Origin: Phycisphaerae bacterium RAS1
GTDB taxonomy: Bacteria > Planctomycetota > Phycisphaerae > UBA1845 > Fen-1342
NCBI GenBank assembly: GCA_007859745.1
Contig: SMLU01000001.1
Span: 620,001 to 684,000 of the forward strand
Direction: 5' to 3'
DNA: 64,000 nucleotides
Below, piece after piece: positions 3,100 through 56,328 of this stretch. The notes under the pieces were generated by a model that saw nothing but the letters and a program-made list of their open reading frames with translations, did no database searches and was not told where the DNA came from. A program made the position numbers and the translations under genes. How positions within the stretch are numbered: the first letter of the stretch is position 1; every line of letters begins with the position of its first letter.

Positions 3100-5568
3100 A
3101 TGGCGACGTTTCTACAAACCTGCCTGCTCCTCGGCGTCTTCACGCCGCTGGCCAGCTTCGTCTTTCTGGCTTTCTTCGGCACGCGCCTCCCCCGGCCCGG
3201 ATGGCTGATGAGCCTGCATCACCGCCTGGCCCGCGATGCGGACGAGCACGCCGGCGGCCCACACGGCCACGGTCCCGGCCCGCCAGACGCTGCGGTGCAC
3301 GCCCATCGTCATGGTTCCACCCCCGGCGAGCCACTGGCCGGCTGGATTGCGACCGCGGCCATCGGCATGTCGCTGCTTCTGGCGATTCTCGCCACGTTTG
3401 CCTGGGGCGGCGTCTCAGAGCCGGACCGCGACGCCCTGTCGCGCCTGGCCGCGACGCAGGCGCCGCTCTGGGTGACCCTGGGCAGCGTGCCGATCCGCTT
3501 CGGCGTCCGGCTGGATTCGCTCACGGTCATCGTCTTCCTGATGGTCACCCTGTGCGCGACGTGCATCCACGTTTTCAGCGTCGGCTACATGAAAGGCGAC
3601 CCGCGCTTCGCCCGCTTCTTCACGTTCCTGTCGCTCTTCTGCTTCTCAATGCTCGGCCTGGTGATCAGCACCAGCCTGCTGTTCCTGTTCGTCTTCTGGG
3701 AACTCGTGGGCGTGTGCAGCTACTTCCTGATCGGCTTCTGGTTCGAGAAGAAATCGGCCAGCAACGCGGCGATCAAGGCCTTCGTCGTCAACCGTGTCGG
3801 CGACTTCGGATTCGTCATCGGCGTGGGTCTTTGCTTCGCCTACCTGGGCGACCTGTCGCTGGACGGGGCGACCGCGGTCATGCAGGCCGGAGCGCACCGC
3901 GCCGGAGTCATCAGCGGCCTGCCCGACGCGGCCGTCGCCGTCGCTGAGCCGCAGGCGGCGCGGGCGGCGGTTTTGTTTTCGACCAACTTCGCCGGCGTGA
4001 GCCTCGCAACCTGGCTCGGGCTGATGCTCTTCTGCGGGGCGATCGGAAAAAGCGCCCAGTTCCCGCTGCAAGTCTGGCTGCCCGACGCGATGGAAGGCCC
4101 GACGCCCGTCTCCGCCCTGATCCACGCCGCCACAATGGTCGCCGCCGGCGTCTACCTGGTCGCCCGCATCTTCCTGCTGCTGACGCCTGCGGCGCTCGAC
4201 GCCATCGCCGTCGTCGGCTGCATTACGCTCACCATGGCGGCGCTGATCGCGATCGTGCAGACCGACATCAAGCGCGTCCTGGCCTATTCGACGCTTTCGC
4301 AGCTCGGCTACATGATCTTCGGTCTGGGCATCGGCGCGTGGGTCGGGGCCATGTTCCATCTGCTCGTACACGCTTTCTTCAAGGCCCTGCTCTTCCTCGG
4401 CGCCGGACAGGTGATCGCGGGCTGCCATCACGAGCAGGACTTGCGGCGAATGGGCGGGCTGGGCGGGAAGATGCCGCGAACGACGCTCACGTTTCTGGTC
4501 GCCGTGCTGGCGATCGCCGGGGCGGGGATCCCGTTCACGCCGATGGGGCTGGGAAGCTTCTACAGCAAAGACGAGATTCTGGCGGTCGCCAATTTCCGCC
4601 ATCACGAGGGCACGCTCTCGCTGATTCTGTACCTGCTGCCCGTGGCCGTGGCGTACATCACGCCCTTCTACATGGGCCGCTGCTTTATTCTGGCGTTTCT
4701 CGGAAAGCCGCGCGATTCGCATGTTCATGAGCACGCGCATGAAAGCCCGCTGATGTACCGGCCGCTGCTGGTGCTGGCGGCGCTGACGCTGATTGCCGGC
4801 GTGCCGATCTGGATTTTCCGCAGCTACGTGGTGAGCGCCGCGCCGGAGGCCTCGCCGCTGGCGCAGGTTTTCGACGGCCGATCGCACGAAGTCGAGCACG
4901 CGGTGCACACGACGCTCGTGCTGCACGTCGGGTTGGCGTTCGCAGTCGGCCTGGGGCTGGCGTGGTGGCTCTATCGCGACGGCCTGGAACGCGCCGCCCA
5001 GTTTGCCAAGCTGCCCTGGGTGCGCCCGGTCCACACGCTGCTGTCCAAGAAGTTCTACTTCGACGAGATCTACGGCGTCGTCTTCGTCGGCGGTTCGCGG
5101 GCCCTGGCCTACGCCGGCCGGCTTTTCGACACGTGGATCATCGACGGCATCGTCGATACGTCGGCCTATCTGACTGAGCGCATCAGCCGCTTCTCCGGCG
5201 TCGTAGTCGACAACATGGGCGTTGACGGAATGTTCAACGGCCTGGCCGCCGTCACCTCCGCCGTCGGCGGCGCCCTGCGCCGCGTGCAGACCGGGTTGAT
5301 CCGCAACTACATTCTGATTGCGACGGCGGCGGTCGCGGCGGCGCTGATTGGCTGGCTGTGGAGCCCTTCGGCGGCGGCGATCGCGTTATTGGTCTTGGTC
5401 CTGGCGCTCGTATGGCCATTCGTGTTGAATGCGCCCAGTCGAGCGAGTGTCGCTGGTCTTAGCCCCGCAGGAGCGCGGGTCAGCCCCATGGGGGCGACGG
5501 TCAGCCCGGTAGGGGCGATGGCCAGCCCCGCAGGGGCGATGGCCAGCCCCGTAGGGGCGAAAGAGTAA
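3100..5568 (+). CDS. nuoL: NADH-quinone oxidoreductase subunit L (NuoL)
   Basis: Distal antiporter-like proton-pumping subunit of complex I (ND5 homologue). Recognisable motifs are FWELVGVCSYFLIGFWF at residues 199-215, holding the key helix-5 glutamate, LPDAMEGPTPVSALIHAATM with the conserved channel residues, and DIKRVLAYSTLSQLGYM. At 822 residues it is longer than E. coli NuoL (613). One addition is a His-rich loop (GGPHGHGPG and HAHRHG) at about residues 40-73 between the first helices. The other is the extreme C-terminus, residues 788-822: five exact seven-residue repeats of type SPxGAxx, encoded by five 21-bp palindromic repeats of the neighbouring transposon-like element, with the stop codon at its edge. 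The lateral helix region before this tail looks intact, so the protein is probably functional. Confidence 0.95.
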   Translation: MATFLQTCLLLGVFTPLASFVFLAFFGTRLPRPGWLMSLHHRLARDADEHAGGPHGHGPGPPDAAVHAHRHGSTPGEPLAGWIATAAIGMSLLLAILATFAWGGVSEPDRDALSRLAATQAPLWVTLGSVPIRFGVRLDSLTVIVFLMVTLCATCIHVFSVGYMKGDPRFARFFTFLSLFCFSMLGLVISTSLLFLFVFWELVGVCSYFLIGFWFEKKSASNAAIKAFVVNRVGDFGFVIGVGLCFAYLGDLSLDGATAVMQAGAHRAGVISGLPDAAVAVAEPQAARAAVLFSTNFAGVSLATWLGLMLFCGAIGKSAQFPLQVWLPDAMEGPTPVSALIHAATMVAAGVYLVARIFLLLTPAALDAIAVVGCITLTMAALIAIVQTDIKRVLAYSTLSQLGYMIFGLGIGAWVGAMFHLLVHAFFKALLFLGAGQVIAGCHHEQDLRRMGGLGGKMPRTTLTFLVAVLAIAGAGIPFTPMGLGSFYSKDEILAVANFRHHEGTLSLILYLLPVAVAYITPFYMGRCFILAFLGKPRDSHVHEHAHESPLMYRPLLVLAALTLIAGVPIWIFRSYVVSAAPEASPLAQVFDGRSHEVEHAVHTTLVLHVGLAFAVGLGLAWWLYRDGLERAAQFAKLPWVRPVHTLLSKKFYFDEIYGVVFVGGSRALAYAGRLFDTWIIDGIVDTSAYLTERISRFSGVVVDNMGVDGMFNGLAAVTSAVGGALRRVQTGLIRNYILIATAAVAAALIGWLWSPSAAAIALLVLVLALVWPFVLNAPSRASVAGLSPAGARVSPMGATVSPVGAMASPAGAMASPVGAKE
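5461..5565. repeat. Five 21-bp tandem palindromic repeats, left array, translated in nuoL
   Basis: Units start at 5461, 5482, 5503, 5524 and 5545, an exact 21-base period. Each has the core AGCCCC(N)2-3GGGGCG, a short hairpin. The period is a multiple of three, so the frame of nuoL stays open through all five units. An inverted array with the same period lies at 6171-6260. Confidence 0.9.
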
Positions 5569-5638
5569 AGCCCACGGCGTAAGCCGTGGGTCGCCGCGAC
5601 ATTGAACGTATCTTGAAGCCCCGTAGGGGCGAAAGAAC

Positions 5639-6089
5639 ATGGCGCACAGCTTCGCCAACCTGCTCCACCACGTGATCTTCAGCACGAAGGACCGCTCCGC
5701 GCTGATCGACAGCGACCTCGCGCCTCGACTCCATGCGTATCTGGGCGGGATCGTCGACGAACTCAATGGCGTCGCGCTGGCGATCGGCGGCGCCGTGGAT
5801 CACGTTCACCTGCTCATCAAACTTCCGGCAACGGTTGCACTCGCCGACGCGATCCGCATCATCAAGACGAATTCATCGAAATGGGTCCATGACACGTGGC
5901 CCGATAAACGCGCTTTCGCGTGGAGGCGGGTACGCGGCATTCAGCGTCAGTCAATCGGCAGTCGCCGACGTTCGCGCGTACATCGCGGATCAGGAGGACC
6001 ACTATCGGCGCGTCTCGTTCCAGGAGGAATTCGTCGCGTTTCACAAGCGGCATGGGATTGAATATGACGAACGCCACATCTGGCAATAG
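5639..6089 (+). pseudogene. REP-associated tyrosine transposase (RAYT, IS200-like), frameshifted
   Basis: The first 95 residues (MAHSFANLLHHVIFSTKDR...) match the Y1/IS200-like transposase family, with the metal-binding HUH motif in DHVHLL at about 54-59. The frame breaks around 5924-5930. The rest of the domain continues in the next frame from about 5931 (YAAFSVSQSAVADVRAYIAD...) and contains the likely catalytic tyrosine in VRAYIADQ and the usual SFQEEFVAFHKRHGIEYDER ending, stopping at TAG 6087-6089. The net shift is one extra base or two missing bases. Without the shift the product would be near 149 residues, a normal RAYT size. As it stands the first frame runs to 6061 with unrelated sequence and lacks the tyrosine. 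A sequencing error cannot be excluded. Confidence 0.85.
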
Positions 6090-6170
6090 GCCGGTTCTTT
6101 CGCCCCTACGGGGCTTTGGAAATACGAGGGGCCGCGCGGCCCCACGGTTTGCGCCGTGGGCTTTACTCTT

Positions 6171-6260
6171 TCGCCCCTGCGGGGCTAACAATCGCCCCTG
6201 CGGGGCCAGCAATCGCCCCTCCGGGGCCCGGAATCGCCCCTACGGGCCCCGAATCGCCCC
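6171..6260. repeat. 21-bp tandem palindromic repeats, right array (inverted)
   Basis: Units beginning TCGCCCC at 6171, 6192, 6213, 6234 and 6254 (period 21, the last step 20). Each forms a short CCCC..GGGG hairpin. The array is the inverted counterpart of 5461-5565 and ends about 30 bases before nuoM. Confidence 0.88.
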
Positions 6261-8028: not shown

Positions 8029-9702
8029 ATGACGATCCCGCTTGCCTCCATGTGGATGCCCGACGCCGCGACGATGCAACTCGTCGCACCCGAGCTGATT
8101 CTCACTGCCGCCATCGCCGCGCTGCTGCTCGTGCCGCTGGCCGTCGGGCGAAATACGTCCGTCAGTCTGCTCCTCGCCCTCATCGGCGTGCTCGCCGCCG
8201 CGACGGTCGGCGTCGGCGCACTCGGCGATCGCACGCCCGGTGACGGGCACAGCATCGAGCTCTTCGGTCCCAGCGGTCCGGCCGGCGCCTCGCCCGGAAT
8301 GCTCGTCGTCGATCGCTTCGGCGGCTACTTCCGCGCGCTGCTGCTGCTGTTCCTTGCTGCGATTCTCGTCATGTGGCAGCTCTTCGAAGCCCGCCGCGAG
8401 AGGCACGCGCCAGAGTTTCTGACGCTTCTCCTGTGCAGCGGTCTCGGCATGATCCTGATGGCAGGCACGTCAAACCTGCTGATGATGATCGTCGCCATCG
8501 AGCTGGCCTCGCTGCCCAGCTATGCGCTGGCCGGGTTCGAACGCCAACGCCGCGCCGCCGGCGAAGCCGCCCTGAAATATTCGCTCTTCGGCGCCGCCAC
8601 CAGCGGCTTTATGATCTTCGGCGCCAGCCTGCTCTTCGGCCTGACCGGCTCCTTGCACATTCCGACGATCGTGCAGCACCTGACCGCGGTGGACTCCGGC
8701 CCCGCCAGCGCCGCGCTGCTCGCCCTCGCGCTGCTGACGATCTTCGCCGGCGTCGGCTTTAAGATCTCCGCCGTCCCGTTCCATTTCTGGTGTCCGGACG
8801 TGTTCGAGGGCGCCTCGATCACGATCGCCACCTGGCTCAGCGTCGCCAGCAAGGCCGCCGGGCTTGTTCTGGTCGTTCGCGTGGCGAGCCTGTGCGGCGG
8901 AATGCTGAATGACGCGGCCCTATTGGGCGGAGCGTATGAATTCGTCCTGCTGCCGATACTGCGCTACGGCCTGGCAGCGTTCGCCGCGATCACCTGCACG
9001 GTCGCCAATCTGGCGGCGTATCGCCAAACCAGCGTCCGCCGGCTGCTGGCCTACAGCTCCATCGCTCACGCCGGTTACATGTTGGCGGTTGCGCCGATCA
9101 TCAGCCGCTCGGCCGATTCGCCCGGCGCCGCGATGAGCGCGCTGGCCGCGTACCTGGCGGTCTATTTGTTCATGAACCTCGGTGCGTTCCTGGCGCTGGC
9201 CCTGGTCGCGGTCGATCGCGGCCGCGAGGACGTCGAGGCGTTCACCGGCCTCGGCTGGCGTGATCCGGCTACGGCGGCGTCGCTCACCGTTTGTCTCGTC
9301 TCGCTGATCGGCCTTCCCCCGGTCGGCGGATTCGTCGCGAAATTCCTGCTCATCGCCGCGCTGGGGCGCTTCGCGGTCGCAGACGATGCGGCCCTGCTCT
9401 GGGGGCTGGTGACGGTTGTTGTGATCAACACGGCGATCAGCCTCTTTTACTACGCGCGCATCATCCGGCAGATGTATCTGCGCGGCGAGAGCGAACCGGC
9501 GACCGCCCTCGCGGCGCCGGCCGGAGCCAAGCTCGTCCTGCACGTCTGCGCCGTTGTGCTGCTTCTCACGGGCACGCTTTCGATCGGCGCATTGAAACGC
9601 ACCGCGGATTCGGCCGCCGTTCGAGCCGCCCCGCCGGCCGTTCGGGTAAGCGACGCGCACGTTTTTCCGACCCGCGCGCGGTTTTCCGAGCCGCGACCGT
9701 AA
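8029..9702 (+). CDS. nuoN: NADH-quinone oxidoreductase subunit N (NuoN)
   Basis: Third antiporter-like subunit (ND2 homologue), 557 residues. Motifs: IVAIELASLPSYALAGF with the helix-5 glutamate, FHFWCPDVFEGAS, and RRLLAYSSIAHAGYMLA. It ends the nuo series. The last residues (FSEPRP) and the TAA stop at 9700-9702 are encoded by one arm of a palindromic repeat, and the insertion sequence begins one base after the stop. The IS therefore sits immediately behind the gene without truncating it, because the duplicated target contains the stop codon. Start ATG 8029 directly follows the right arm of the CACAGAG repeat. Confidence 0.95.
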   Translation: MTIPLASMWMPDAATMQLVAPELILTAAIAALLLVPLAVGRNTSVSLLLALIGVLAAATVGVGALGDRTPGDGHSIELFGPSGPAGASPGMLVVDRFGGYFRALLLLFLAAILVMWQLFEARRERHAPEFLTLLLCSGLGMILMAGTSNLLMMIVAIELASLPSYALAGFERQRRAAGEAALKYSLFGAATSGFMIFGASLLFGLTGSLHIPTIVQHLTAVDSGPASAALLALALLTIFAGVGFKISAVPFHFWCPDVFEGASITIATWLSVASKAAGLVLVVRVASLCGGMLNDAALLGGAYEFVLLPILRYGLAAFAAITCTVANLAAYRQTSVRRLLAYSSIAHAGYMLAVAPIISRSADSPGAAMSALAAYLAVYLFMNLGAFLALALVAVDRGREDVEAFTGLGWRDPATAASLTVCLVSLIGLPPVGGFVAKFLLIAALGRFAVADDAALLWGLVTVVVINTAISLFYYARIIRQMYLRGESEPATALAAPAGAKLVLHVCAVVLLLTGTLSIGALKRTADSAAVRAAPPAVRVSDAHVFPTRARFSEPRP

Positions 9703-9703
9703 G
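9682..9703. repeat. Left arm of palindromic family J, split by the IS
   Basis: TTTTCCGAGCCGCGACCGTAAG; its complement lies on the far side of the insertion sequence (to about 11249). It encodes the end of NuoN including its stop codon. A complete copy of the family is at 56193-56257. Confidence 0.75.
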
Positions 9704-11202
9704 AGACTGAGAACTTTTCCTTTGGCCGGCGTCGGTTTCCTTGTCGCATGGTCTGCGGCTCGTGATTCGCTTGTTTACTTCGGCTGCACCGGCGGGTTCA
9801 TTCGCTCACCGTTGGTCAGGTGACGAGCTGCGCGGTGAAGTGCATCACGTTGTAGGCGAGGGCGGCCCAAAGGGCCTGGCAGCGTACTTTGGCCAGCCCG
9901 CGCACGACGCATTGCGCCAGTCCGCGATACCGTTTCAAGTCGGCGTTGACCGGCTCGGCGGTCGAGGCTCGCTGCTTATAGATCGTCTGGCCCGCCGGCG
10001 TTCCCATGCGCACGCGCCAGGCCGCCACGCCCGGACCGTCAGAGCGTTTGGGCGCAAAGCCCGCGGTGTCGTTCCCGGTCTTCTGCGGCGGCGCATAGAT
10101 GCGCGTGCCCGCCGCTTCGGCGCGCTCGATCTCGGCCAACTGCACGTAGCCGCCGTCGAGCAGGTGCTCTACCACCTTCGCGCCGCTGCGCCGCTCCACC
10201 TGGGCGCGCAGCGGCGCTGCTTGCTGGTGGTCGCTGCGGGCCTGGGTGACGTCCACCCCCACAATCGCGCGGCTCTCCACGTCGGTTGCCAGTTGTACGT
10301 TATACGCCGGACGGTAGCCGCCGTCGGGCATCTTCATGACGCGCGCTTGCGGGTCGATCGTCGAGGCCCGCGGCTCTTTGGCACGCACGTCCGGCCGCTT
10401 GGACTGCTGCTGGTCTGCGCCAATCTTCGGCAACTCGGCCAACGCCGCTTCGATTCGCTCGACCCGCTCCCGGGCCGCACGCTCCTGCGCGGCACGCCGT
10501 CGCGCATCCGCGGCAGGGTTGTCCGACTGGGCCTTGACCGCCGCCACATGGGCGCGGGCTTCCGTCAGTTGACGCTGCAGCGTCGCCTCGCGGCGGAAGG
10601 TGTGCCGCCCGGCGTCGGCCCGCACCTTGGTTCCGTCCTGCGCAATCCGACGCACGCTCACGATCCGCTTGTGCATCAGCACCGCCAACACCTGCGAAAA
10701 CAGTTCGTCCAGCGCCGCCCTGTGACCGACGCGGAAGTCATTCAACGTGTGATAGTTCACCGGCACGCCGCCGCACAGCCAGCGAAAAGCGTCCTGGCAG
10801 CCGCAGCGTCGCTCGATCTCGCGCCCACTGCCAATCCCCTCGATCGTCGCGTACAGCCACAACGCCGTCAGCAACTGCGGATCCGTCGCCGGCCGGCCCG
10901 GCTCGTCGCCGCGCGCCTTGAGCGGGGCGCTGAACGCCGAAAGATCGAGCCGCTCCACGACCGACCAAACCGCCCGCGCCGCGTGATCCGCCGGCAGCAG
11001 ATCCTCCAGACAGCACGGCAGCAGCAACGACTGCTCGCGATTCGGCCGCCGAAGCCGCGGCGGCTCCGCCAACGCACGCCGCCCCGTCGATTCCGATACT
11101 GGGTCGTTCATCACGGCATCCATTCCGGCAATCAGCATCGTCGTGTCCATGTCGAATAATGTACCATCCCCGGCAAGGGGGATTTATTCTCACTCTCGTA
11201 AG
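9698..11202. mobile_element. IS1182-like insertion sequence with 6-bp target duplication
   Basis: The element proper is 9704-11196 (1493 bp). Its ends are inverted repeats: left AGACTGAGAACTTTTCC, right end read inward AGAGTGAGAATAAATCC (9 of the first 10 bases identical). CGTAAG is present directly outside both ends (9698-9703 and 11197-11202), as expected for a target duplication. One minus-strand transposase gene fills it. Joining the flanks after removing the IS and one CGTAAG restores a near-perfect palindrome of family J. Confidence 0.85.
9816..11150 (-). CDS. IS1182-family transposase (DDE)
   Basis: 444-residue transposase. The N-terminal part (residues ~30-120: NREQSLLLPCCLEDLLPADH, RCGCQDAFRWLCGG, YHTLNDFRVGH) is the domain typical of IS1182/IS5-like transposases. 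The catalytic part includes the first acidic residue in RIAQDGTKVRADAG, the second in AIVGVDVTQARSDHQQA, and a late glutamate in RASTAEPVNADLKRYRG. A charged coiled-coil-like segment separates the first and second catalytic motifs. The frame is intact from ATG 11150, 46 bases inside the right end of the element, to 9816, so the IS may still be active. The family name is from recognised motifs, not from a search. Confidence 0.9.
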   Translation of the reverse strand: MDTTMLIAGMDAVMNDPVSESTGRRALAEPPRLRRPNREQSLLLPCCLEDLLPADHAARAVWSVVERLDLSAFSAPLKARGDEPGRPATDPQLLTALWLYATIEGIGSGREIERRCGCQDAFRWLCGGVPVNYHTLNDFRVGHRAALDELFSQVLAVLMHKRIVSVRRIAQDGTKVRADAGRHTFRREATLQRQLTEARAHVAAVKAQSDNPAADARRRAAQERAARERVERIEAALAELPKIGADQQQSKRPDVRAKEPRASTIDPQARVMKMPDGGYRPAYNVQLATDVESRAIVGVDVTQARSDHQQAAPLRAQVERRSGAKVVEHLLDGGYVQLAEIERAEAAGTRIYAPPQKTGNDTAGFAPKRSDGPGVAAWRVRMGTPAGQTIYKQRASTAEPVNADLKRYRGLAQCVVRGLAKVRCQALWAALAYNVMHFTAQLVT

Positions 11203-11249
11203 GGAGCGGTTCCCCCGCCTACCGCTCCCTCACGGTCGCGGCTCGGAAA
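11197..11249. repeat. Right part of palindromic family J, split by the IS
   Basis: Contains the hairpin GGGAGCGG...CCGCTCCC followed by TCACGGTCGCGGCTCGGAAA, which is the reverse complement of the end of nuoN. Before the IS landed, the two parts formed one palindrome of about 75 bp. Confidence 0.75.
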
Positions 11250-11341
11250 GAGGAACGGACAAGCTCCCTCTCGCACCCAAACACCCGACGCCACCCGCGC
11301 GGCGCAATTGGCGGCGCGTCGCCGGACGGGTATAAGACGGC

Positions 11342-11875
11342 ATGAAATCCGCCCTTCCGCTCGCGATCGCTCTCGTGCTGCTGCCGGCCGCCGGCTGCCA
11401 TGACGGCGCAGAAATAACCACCGAAGACCCGCAAGTGGCGTCGTTCATCAAGCTGATGACGCCGGCGAAGATCGAAGTGGACCGTTTCACCAAGCCGGTC
11501 AGCTTCGCCCGCGACGGCACGGCCGACGGCCTGGAGGTCATGGTTGCGACGCGCGACGTGGCCGGCGATCCGATCAAGGTCTGCGGAACGTTCAATTTCG
11601 AATTGAATGCTCACCGCGCCGCGAGCAGCGACCGCATCGGCCAGCGCGTCGCGCTCTGGCGAGTGGACATCGCCGACGAGAAATCGTTCAAGGCCTACTG
11701 GGAAAATTTCCCGCGCTTTTACCGATTCGAGCTGAAGCTCGACGAAGCCCCGCTCCCCGCCGGCCGATACGTGCTCAGCACCTGGCTGGTCGTCCCCGGC
11801 GGCGACCGGCTGTTTGATGAGTACGAATTCTCCTACGACGGCTCCCCGGTGATCCCCGTGCCGATCACGCGCTGA
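11342..11875 (+). CDS. Putative lipoprotein, function unknown
   Basis: 177 residues with a lipoprotein signal: short basic start (MKSALPL), hydrophobic core and lipobox LLPAAGC with Cys19. The mature part has no family I recognise. It contains KIEVDRFTKPVSF, a segment reading LEVMVATRDVAGDPIKVCGTF, and a C-terminal half rich in beta-type residues (GRYVLSTWLVVPGGDRLFDEYEF), suggesting a small beta-sandwich domain anchored to a membrane. It stands alone on the plus strand between the IS and cstA (convergent, seven bases between stops). No regulatory signal is evident. Confidence 0.7.
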   Translation: MKSALPLAIALVLLPAAGCHDGAEITTEDPQVASFIKLMTPAKIEVDRFTKPVSFARDGTADGLEVMVATRDVAGDPIKVCGTFNFELNAHRAASSDRIGQRVALWRVDIADEKSFKAYWENFPRFYRFELKLDEAPLPAGRYVLSTWLVVPGGDRLFDEYEFSYDGSPVIPVPITR

Positions 11876-11881
11876 GCCGGA

Positions 11882-13843
11882 CTACGCCGGTCGCGCCGCC
11901 GTGCGCGAGGCCACCGGCGACAGAATCTGCACCCAGCGCCGCATCGCATCCGCCGCGATCACGACGACCAGCGCGAGCATGATCGTCGCCAGAACGCTCA
12001 TCAGCCGCAGCGAGAATGCCTCGCCGGGCGGCGCGGTCGCAATGCGTCCCCACCAGCCCTGCACGCTCTGCACGCCGGCGGTCAGCGTCGTCGCCAGCAC
12101 GAAGAAGAACGGGATCGCGGTGCACAAAGCGTAGACGCGCTTCGGCGCGTGCAGCAGCAGATAGGTTGTGCCGACCGCCAGCGCGATGGACGCCAGAAGC
12201 TGGTTGGCGATTCCCAGCATGCGCCAGAGCGTGTTGATGTTGCCGGTGTAGAGCAGGTAACCCCACGCGAAACAGGTGAGCAGGCTCATGCCGACGTTCA
12301 TCGCCCAGTTCGGGCGGTGCGACGCGGCGCTCGCCGCGCCGGGAGCGGCGAGTGGCGCGCCGGGTGCGTGGTGTGGAATGAGTGATGCGTTCGCCCCCTC
12401 GCGCCCGGAGAATTGGCCGACCGCTTCCTGCACCACGAAGCGCGCCACGCGCGTCCCGGTTTCGAGCAGCGTCAGAATGAAGAGCGCCTCGAACATGATG
12501 ACGAAGTGGTACCAGTACGACATCAGGTGCGCCAGCCCCGGCACGCTGGAAAACACCTTGGCCATCCCGACCGCCAGCGTCACCGCGCCCCCGCTGCGGC
12601 CGCGCAGACCGCCGGTGCCGTCCGCCCGCCGCGCCTCTCCGGTGCCGCTCTCCAGCTCATTCAGTTCGACCGCGTGCAGGTTCCAGTCGTGCTCCGTTCG
12701 GACGGTCTCCAGCATCGCCGCGTAATGCGCCTGCTCGGCCGGCGTCCTCTGATCCACGTTGATGGCGAAATAGTCGCCCGGCTCGAGCGCACAGGCCGCC
12801 ACCAGGGCCGTCACCGCGACGAATCCTTCGACCACCATCGCCCCGTATCCGATCGGGCGAATGTGGCTCTCCTTTGAAATCATCTTGGGCGTCGTCCCCG
12901 ACGCGATCAGTGCGTGAAAGCCCGAGATCGCGCCGCACATAATCACGATGCAGATGAACGGCCAGACCGGCCCGCTGATCACCGGCCCGCCGCCGCTCAG
13001 GAACGGCGTCGTCGCCGGCATTTTCAGCGTCGGGTGCGCGGCGAAGATGCCCACCGCCAGCACCGCGATCACGCCGATTTTCATGTACGAGCTGAGATAG
13101 TCGCGCGGGCACATCAGCACCCACACCGGCAGGATCGCGGCGACGGCGGCGTATGCCGGCAGGAGCAGTTTCAGCGTCGTCGGCGAAAACAGGAGCGAAT
13201 CGGACCAGGCCGACTCCGCGAAGGGCCGGCCGAAGAACACGCCGAGCAGAACAATCGTCACGCCGATGACGGACGCCTCCGCCACCTTGCCGGGGCGGAT
13301 CTTGTACATCCAGAGTCCCGTCAGCAGGGCGGCGGGAATCGTCACCACGATGGTGAACATGCCCCAACTGCTTTCCGCCAACGCGTTCACGACGACGATC
13401 GCGACGCTGGCGAGCGTGCAGATGATGATGAAAAGCGTCGCGATCGACGTGATCACCCCGGAGAGATCGCCGATCGTGCTGCGCGCAATGCGCGGCAGAG
13501 ACAAGCCGTCCTGCCGGACCGAGGCCCACAGAATGACAAAATCATGCACCGCCCCGGCCAGGCACGCGCCGATGACAATCCAGATGAACCCGGGGAAGAA
13601 CCCCCACTGGCTGGCCAGCACCGGTCCCACCAGCGGCCCCGGACCGGCGATGGCTGCAAAATGGACCCCGAACAGCACGTACTTATTCGTCGGGTGGTAA
13701 TCGACGCCGTCATTGAGCCGCTGCGCGGGCGTGGGTCGCGAATCGTCCAGCATCGCGACCCGTGTCGCCAGGAACGCCCCGTACAGCCGATAGGCGATCG
13801 CGAAGGCGGCCAGCGAGCCAACCACGAGCCACAAAGAATTCAA
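11882..13843 (-). CDS. cstA: Carbon starvation protein CstA (peptide/pyruvate transporter family)
   Basis: 653-residue inner-membrane transporter with about 16 helices. The N-terminal half carries the family pattern: YHPTNKYVLFGVHFAAIAGPGPLVGP, QWGFFPGFIWIVIGACLAGAVHDF, and later SGFHALIASGTTPKMI. CstA proteins import peptides or pyruvate and are induced on carbon depletion in E. coli; the substrate here is unknown. A central hydrophilic loop (about residues 385-425, VELNELESGTGEARRADGTGG) faces one side of the membrane. No btsSR-like regulators lie nearby, and the gene appears monocistronic, with its stop facing the lipoprotein gene. Confidence 0.95.
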   Translation of the reverse strand: MNSLWLVVGSLAAFAIAYRLYGAFLATRVAMLDDSRPTPAQRLNDGVDYHPTNKYVLFGVHFAAIAGPGPLVGPVLASQWGFFPGFIWIVIGACLAGAVHDFVILWASVRQDGLSLPRIARSTIGDLSGVITSIATLFIIICTLASVAIVVVNALAESSWGMFTIVVTIPAALLTGLWMYKIRPGKVAEASVIGVTIVLLGVFFGRPFAESAWSDSLLFSPTTLKLLLPAYAAVAAILPVWVLMCPRDYLSSYMKIGVIAVLAVGIFAAHPTLKMPATTPFLSGGGPVISGPVWPFICIVIMCGAISGFHALIASGTTPKMISKESHIRPIGYGAMVVEGFVAVTALVAACALEPGDYFAINVDQRTPAEQAHYAAMLETVRTEHDWNLHAVELNELESGTGEARRADGTGGLRGRSGGAVTLAVGMAKVFSSVPGLAHLMSYWYHFVIMFEALFILTLLETGTRVARFVVQEAVGQFSGREGANASLIPHHAPGAPLAAPGAASAASHRPNWAMNVGMSLLTCFAWGYLLYTGNINTLWRMLGIANQLLASIALAVGTTYLLLHAPKRVYALCTAIPFFFVLATTLTAGVQSVQGWWGRIATAPPGEAFSLRLMSVLATIMLALVVVIAADAMRRWVQILSPVASRTAARPA

Positions 13844-56192: not shown

Positions 56193-56328
56193 TTCCGAGC
56201 CGCGCGCGTAAGCAAGCGGTTCCTGCCGGCTCCGCTCCCTCACGGTCGCGGCTCGGATTGCAGGTGCCATGAGTGCCATGCCGACGGCCTTTGCGTCGGC
56301 ATGCCCACGCAAACGCCGTGGGCATGGC
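56193..56328. repeat. Palindromic families J (complete) and F (copy 2)
   Basis: 56193-56257 reads TTCCGAGCCGCGCGCGTAAG ... CTCACGGTCGCGGCTCGGA, a complete family J palindrome such as the one the IS split at 9.7/11.2 kb. Next, 56264-56328 is family F (GTGCCATGCCGACGGCCTTT GCGTCGGCATG...). They fill most of the divergent gap between the lipoprotein and TPR genes. Confidence 0.8.

Follow-up and report, generated by a model that had tools for sequence, protein, structure and literature searches.

The stretch of the Phycisphaerae bacterium RAS1 genome analysed here (assembly GCA_007859745.1, contig SMLU01000001.1, positions 620,001 to 684,000; 64,000 nucleotides, referred to as the window) harbours an insertion sequence (IS) of the IS1182 family at the end of nuoN. 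The element looks active, and its transposase most probably chooses the hairpin units of a repetitive extragenic palindromic (REP) sequence, inserts in their apical loop and duplicates this loop together with its closing base pair. The nuoN site comprises the following features (window positions):

8029..9702, + strand: nuoN (TIGR01770, 312 bits over residues 18-515 of 557, below the cut-off of 332.6; PF00361)
9688..9697, + strand: left part of the split REP unit, GAGCCGCGAC (from the sequence)
9698..9703, + strand: left copy of the target-site duplication (TSD) CGTAAG, i.e. closing C, loop GTAA and closing G of the REP hairpin (from the sequence)
9704..11196, - strand: IS1182-family insertion sequence, 1493 bp (8 full-length genome matches, 0-5 mismatches)
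9704..9720, + strand: terminal inverted repeat AGACTGAGAACTTTTCC (from the sequence; identical end in every IS copy)
9816..11150, - strand: transposase, 444 aa (NF033551 transpos_IS1182; Pfam DUF772 and DDE_Tnp_1 / DDE_Tnp_1_6)
11180..11196, - strand: terminal inverted repeat AGAGTGAGAATAAATCC (from the sequence; identical end in every IS copy)
11197..11202, + strand: right copy of the TSD CGTAAG (from the sequence)
11203..11209, + strand: right part of the split REP unit, GGAGCGG (from the sequence)
11222..11244, - strand: second REP unit, intact and inverted, which creates a large palindrome (exact unit match)

The genome contains eight full-length copies of the IS, with 0, 0, 1, 3, 3, 4, 4 and 5 differences, and this near-identity shows that the IS has spread recently. 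All eight copies are bordered by a perfect 6-bp TSD. The duplicated sequences vary between copies and the outer flanks are unrelated, so the eight copies represent separate insertions. Seven of them read GAGCCGCGAC[TSD]GGAGCGG, which is the identical base of the identical REP unit, with the TSDs CGTAAG (three copies), CGTGAG (three copies) and CGGAAG (one copy). The six duplicated bases correspond to the apical tetraloop of the unit and its closing C-G pair, and the IS occurs in either orientation, with four copies in each. The unit is split in an inverted pair as well as in a direct array (locus L003), indicating that the IS targets the individual REP unit and that the large palindrome is incidental. 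The remaining copy, at locus L007, lies in a look-alike of the unit. A search for other elements that use this cut position, by way of half-sites (GAGCCGCGACCGTNAG lacking the next G), returned 16 places, 6 of which are this IS; all but one of the rest resemble degenerate units. The exception is at G000:C3:62774 (L147), where a REP half-site ends at the cut position of the IS and is followed by unrelated sequence that is not this IS.

The original prediction, made from the letters of the window, had described an IS1182-like element between two copies of CGTAAG, landed in a palindrome at the nuoN stop codon, and had proposed that other copies be checked for splitting palindromes too. The duplication can be read directly at both sides of the element, and the family assignment is confirmed by a score of 365.3 bits against the IS1182 family model NF033551 (cut-off 270). 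The other copies bear the expectation out, and the result named as refuting it, insertion at unrelated sequences, was not obtained, L007 being a partial exception. Removal in silico of the IS and one TSD copy rebuilt a 69-nt near-perfect palindrome, which folds at -37.5 kcal/mol (z -10.0; equalled by 0 of 200 shuffles) and whose outer arms (9683-9706 / 11226-11249) rank first among the inverted repeats found in a search of positions 9000-12000. The predicted palindrome was recovered in this way, but it is built from a smaller 23-nt hairpin unit present twice in inverted orientation, and the axis at which the IS divides one of these REP units is that of the unit itself and not that of the large palindrome. 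The claim that nuoN is not truncated also holds: its stop codon (TAA, 9700-9702) lies inside the duplicated CGTAAG and is therefore unchanged with or without the IS. Positions 9683-9687 and the left part of the REP unit encode the end of NuoN, the unit providing the last codons and the stop. As the TIGR01770 match ends at residue 515 of 557, the last ~40 residues of NuoN, including the repeat-coded ones, form a tail beyond the model. In other genomes, matches to the IS at DNA level were limited to 65-71%, in four genomes of the same family (G005, G006, G010 and G016), apart from short, chance-like matches, and no orthologous empty site is therefore available among the relatives searched, none of which belongs to the same genus.

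The IS carries one ORF (open reading frame) only, of the DDE type, and terminal inverted repeats, as in the IS1182 family; the repeats are imperfect, AGACTGAGAACTTTTCC and AGAGTGAGAATAAATCC being identical at 12 of 17 positions. Residues D171, D265, D306, D331 and E398 are invariant across 10 aligned members. The Pfam families found in the protein are solely DUF772, DDE_Tnp_1_6 and DDE_Tnp_1. Guided targeting of the IS110/IS1111 type (bridge or seek RNA), for which a DEDD transposase (Pfam Transposase_9/20 in table 2 of PMC1525189) is expected, was rejected since only these Pfam matches were found.

The REP unit measures 23 nt (GAGCCGCGACCGTNAGGGAGCGG). It has 388 matches with at most 3 mismatches in the 5.5-Mb genome, compared to 0 for the reversed control pattern, and occupies well below 1% of the genome (388 x 23 nt, ~9 kb). 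A sister pattern of variants B and C has 192 matches genome-wide; the two counts overlap, variant C being two mismatches from variant A. Its single-stranded form folds into a hairpin, CCGC..CC(GTNA)GG..GCGG, whose stem has two G.A mismatches in its middle, and variants B and C preserve this stem despite altered bases, including one pair changed from C-G to G-C. A pair without an IS lies elsewhere in the window:

56197..56254, no strand assigned: unoccupied REP pair, variant B unit (+) and variant A unit (-) (repeat and unit match)

This second copy of the repeat, the genome-wide counts and the seven IS copies inside the unit show that the palindrome at nuoN did not arise by chance. In Planctomycetes, REP-like repeats of class 3 have been described, which carry a CnGA foot (PMC6006769). 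The unit is preceded by a CCGA tag, and this foot and the high copy number fit that class. Furthermore, a class 3 Y1 gene stands alongside these short, high-copy hairpins: one of the 20 Y1_Tnp loci in the genome is bordered by REP units, six per side, and its protein carries the motifs NHVH, WT and Y----Q, consistent with class 3. The same 23-nt unit (at most 2 mismatches) was also seen in 75 of 101 genomes of the order, with up to ~700 matches in one genome and a patchy absence among close relatives. Such order-wide sameness seems unusual for a REP, and a 23-mer shared across the order would make the landing site portable between hosts.

Transposase relatives from the same phylum (~38-58% identity) have similar ends and 5-bp C-NNN-G duplications. 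Relatives with other target sequences also enter at an axis. In the site of G177, CGGCTCA[CCCCG]TGAGCCG, 7 of 7 arm positions pair. The site of G068, GCGACCC[CGTTG/CGAAG]GGGTTGC, pairs at 6 of 7 positions and has an imperfect duplication, and 5 of 7 positions pair in both G452 (GTAGGGTCCG[CTATG]AGGACC, a target bearing a GTAG foot) and G010 (AGGC[CGGAG]GCCG). Arm pairing was scored at seven positions per site and compared with C-N-G sites drawn at random from these loci. L178, the same site as L173, was excluded from the test, as were L110, L124, L129 and L131 (no TSD, contig edge or composite). The same-phylum pool held seven site types and included the IS's own copies, collapsed to one REP site and L007. 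In this pool 32 of 49 positions paired versus 13.3 +- 3.3 expected, a value reached by none of 20000 draws. A hairpin target is present at seven of the eight own sites and at five of the seven same-phylum site types. A scan of genome contigs gave four loci; the ends of L056, L057 and L059 were not found and L058 showed no convincing pair. In sampled stretches of the relatives' own genomes clear recurrence of a target was found only for the palindrome of G177, at one further place (L190, matched on both strands), the other target sequences recurring at or near shuffled levels. Because of this weak recurrence the relatives' targets are not claimed as REP families.

In the mechanism that we favour, the transposase complex would engage a twofold-symmetric target, the IS ends would be joined to the two strands at points that lie 6 nt apart and equally far from the dyad of the unit, and gap repair would duplicate the apical loop and closing pair (C-GTNA-G). 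The feature recognised by the transposase would be this symmetry, presented either by an extruded hairpin or by a twofold-symmetric duplex, with the GGGAGCG side contributing. It is possible, and is suggested here tentatively, that this branch of IS1182 finds its targets by DNA shape and that insertion takes place at the tip of an extruded hairpin, in a cruciform or on the lagging strand, with the length of the TSD following that of the loop (6 for the tetraloop, 5 for the triloops of the relatives). If so, the REP family of each host, whatever its sequence, could serve as landing site. If the hairpin itself is read, the IS would be a simple and testable model of how a DDE transposase can be guided to its target by structure, and REP targeting would explain low-cost spread of an IS in a gene-dense genome.

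Several observations weigh against the choice of hairpins by their axis. The L007 site, CCGGCAC[CTGAAG]GGAGCGAC, matches the unit at 14 of 19 bases and folds poorly (-1.7 kcal/mol, z +0.9). None of the seven REP insertions lies in variant B or C, which is not significant (~0.05 by proportion), and no preference for variant A is claimed. The pool of relatives' sites consisted of loci with both ends readable; the site of G186 (L125) pairs at 1 of 7 arm positions, and the copy at L110 (G006) lacks a TSD. In relatives from Rhizobiales plasmids (43-48% identity), most of the nine distinct sites carry a CT(C/G)AG duplication, and arms around the axis are lacking. When all 16 sites were pooled, 46 of 112 positions paired versus 39.3 +- 5.4, which 2481 of 20000 draws reached and which is not significant. 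As judged from these target sequences, axis insertion characterises part of this IS1182 branch, not the whole branch. Alternatively, the transposase might bind a fixed duplex motif, approximately ACC-NNN-AGGGAGCG; the hairpin would then be irrelevant and the symmetry would mirror the two-fold symmetric strand-transfer complex. We regard this as a real possibility, somewhat short of an even one. At all eight sites, L007 included, position 1 of the TSD is C, positions 5-6 are AG and GGAGCG follows, and both the poor folding of L007 and the armless CT(C/G)AG sites favoured by the Rhizobiales relatives argue in its favour. However, the same-phylum relatives show nearly no similarity to the motif, yet mostly have arms centred on the TSD. 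The IS relative at L110:2046-3575 (G006) lies between long inverted arms, CGTAGCGTCGGCC / GGCCGACGCTACG, and an IS relative on a Bradyrhizobium plasmid (NZ_CP121651.1, L169) sits between groES and groEL.

Two further explanations would take the choice of site away from the IS. REPs are frequent sites of recombination, and the genome holds a REP-associated tyrosine transposase (RAYT) gene flanked by 12 REP units, so that IS-bearing units might have been copied by RAYT mobilisation or by recombination between repeats. This is very improbable, since each copy has its own matching pair of TSDs (CGTAAG, CGTGAG, CGGAAG or CTGAAG), which recombination would mix, and since the IS occurs in both orientations relative to the unit with differing outer flanks. 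It could also be that insertion is random and that only harmless insertions in intergenic repeats persist. In keeping with this, none of the eight insertions interrupts a Pfam domain. Selection cannot, however, yield the identical base of the unit in seven of eight copies, and intergenic DNA far exceeds the repeats; selection as the cause is hardly credible.

The scanned neighbouring ORFs with a Pfam match begin or stop ~50-150 bp from the IS sites. At L003 the site is spanned by a long open frame that encodes a peptidase S49 domain; this domain lies over 300 codons from the site, around which the frame consists of repeat sequence. Among the REP units sampled (the first 30 listed among the matches with at most 3 mismatches), 23 lie in no spanning ORF of at least 200 aa. 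Because REP units lie mostly between genes, the IS spreads with little damage. The original prediction had seen in the insertion site a fit to a target preference that spares genes. Its outcome stands, but gene sparing is a by-product of the location of the repeat, and some units do lie within or near genes: valS, leuS and open frames for an AMP-binding enzyme and for a methylase of the Eco57I type. In leuS (L182:1457-4393) a pair of the same REP units is in frame and reads PSRDREGAV...EPLPHGRGSD.

Three Y1 genes of the RAYT type were found in frame inside the housekeeping genes valS, ileS and gcvP of this genome. In valS (L123:235-4926, G000:C4) the Y1_Tnp gene with its 6 + 6 REP units lies in a frame of 1563 codons without a stop; the insert of ~350 residues falls between the equivalents of residues 472 and 474 in the ValRS of PDB chain 1gax, and the rest of ValRS aligns. 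This locus is the sole valS match in the genome above the cut-off of the ValRS family. The RAYT-type insert in ileS (L180:975-5234) comprises ~230 residues, and that in gcvP is located at L181:2913-6590. The latter two belong to another class, with DHVH/DHIH motifs, and are bordered by other short repeats that are translated as GGTGVSPV or VARPPS peptides. REPs inside tRNA-synthetase genes have been reported (PMC3733652), and no report of a RAYT inside such a gene was found in the literature searched. These inserts may merit follow-up more than the IS. In the window, two matches to the Rfam family Acido-Lenti-1 (5545-5590 and 6141-6186) stand in inverted orientation on either side of a Y1 transposase gene (5639-6089), which appears frameshifted, its N-terminal and C-terminal parts being in different frames. 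This arrangement suggests that the Acido-Lenti-1 'sRNA' family is the end structure of a Y1 element.

Several known systems resemble parts of what is described here. The class 3 TnpA-Y1 'REPtrons' of Planctomycetes (PMC6006769) share with the present repeat the CCGA (CnGA) foot, high copy number and a flanked Y1 gene with the above motifs; here, in contrast, the Y1 gene is in frame within valS. The IS1182 members L088 and L089 come from the same host order and the same broad transposase family (31% identity), but they have a 4-bp CTAG TSD and other ends. REP-specific ISs include ISPsy8 (IS3), ISPa11, ISPpu9, ISPpu10 and ISRm19 (IS110) and ISRm22 (IS4) (Tobes and Pareja 2006, PMC1525189); ISPsy8 and ISRm22 insert at the axis of a hairpin or palindrome, ISRm22 with a 6-bp duplication (PMC1525189). 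Like the present IS they occur at one fixed REP position. They differ in that none is assigned to IS1182 in that paper and in that they enter other REPs. The 'type 1 association' defined there has every copy broken into a REP at the same position, whereas here seven of eight copies are so placed and L007 lies in a sequence that is only REP-like. No report of an IS1182 element tied to a REP was found in the literature searched. Within the IS1182 family, IS1272 / TnSha1 of staphylococci targets inverted repeats or hairpins with little sequence conservation and in both orientations (PMC5678879; PMC4923244). These traits are shared, whereas IS1272 makes no TSD and deletes the target stem-loop (PMC4923244). 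The hairpin-replacing outcome is not seen for the present IS, which keeps the stem, duplicates the loop and closing pair as a 6-bp TSD in 8 of 8 copies and targets one repeat family. Its sites look like the outcome of 'pathway c', drawn as a possibility by Wan et al., a route with joining at the loop by which nothing but the loop would be duplicated (PMC5678879). REP-entering ISs and hairpin-targeting IS1182 members were already known; the present IS combines the two, and duplication of the loop in place of the stem-loop deletion of IS1272 is new. Two separate literatures, on ISs that land in REPs and on IS1182 members that target hairpins, meet here in a single element, of which the genome offers eight clean natural insertions.

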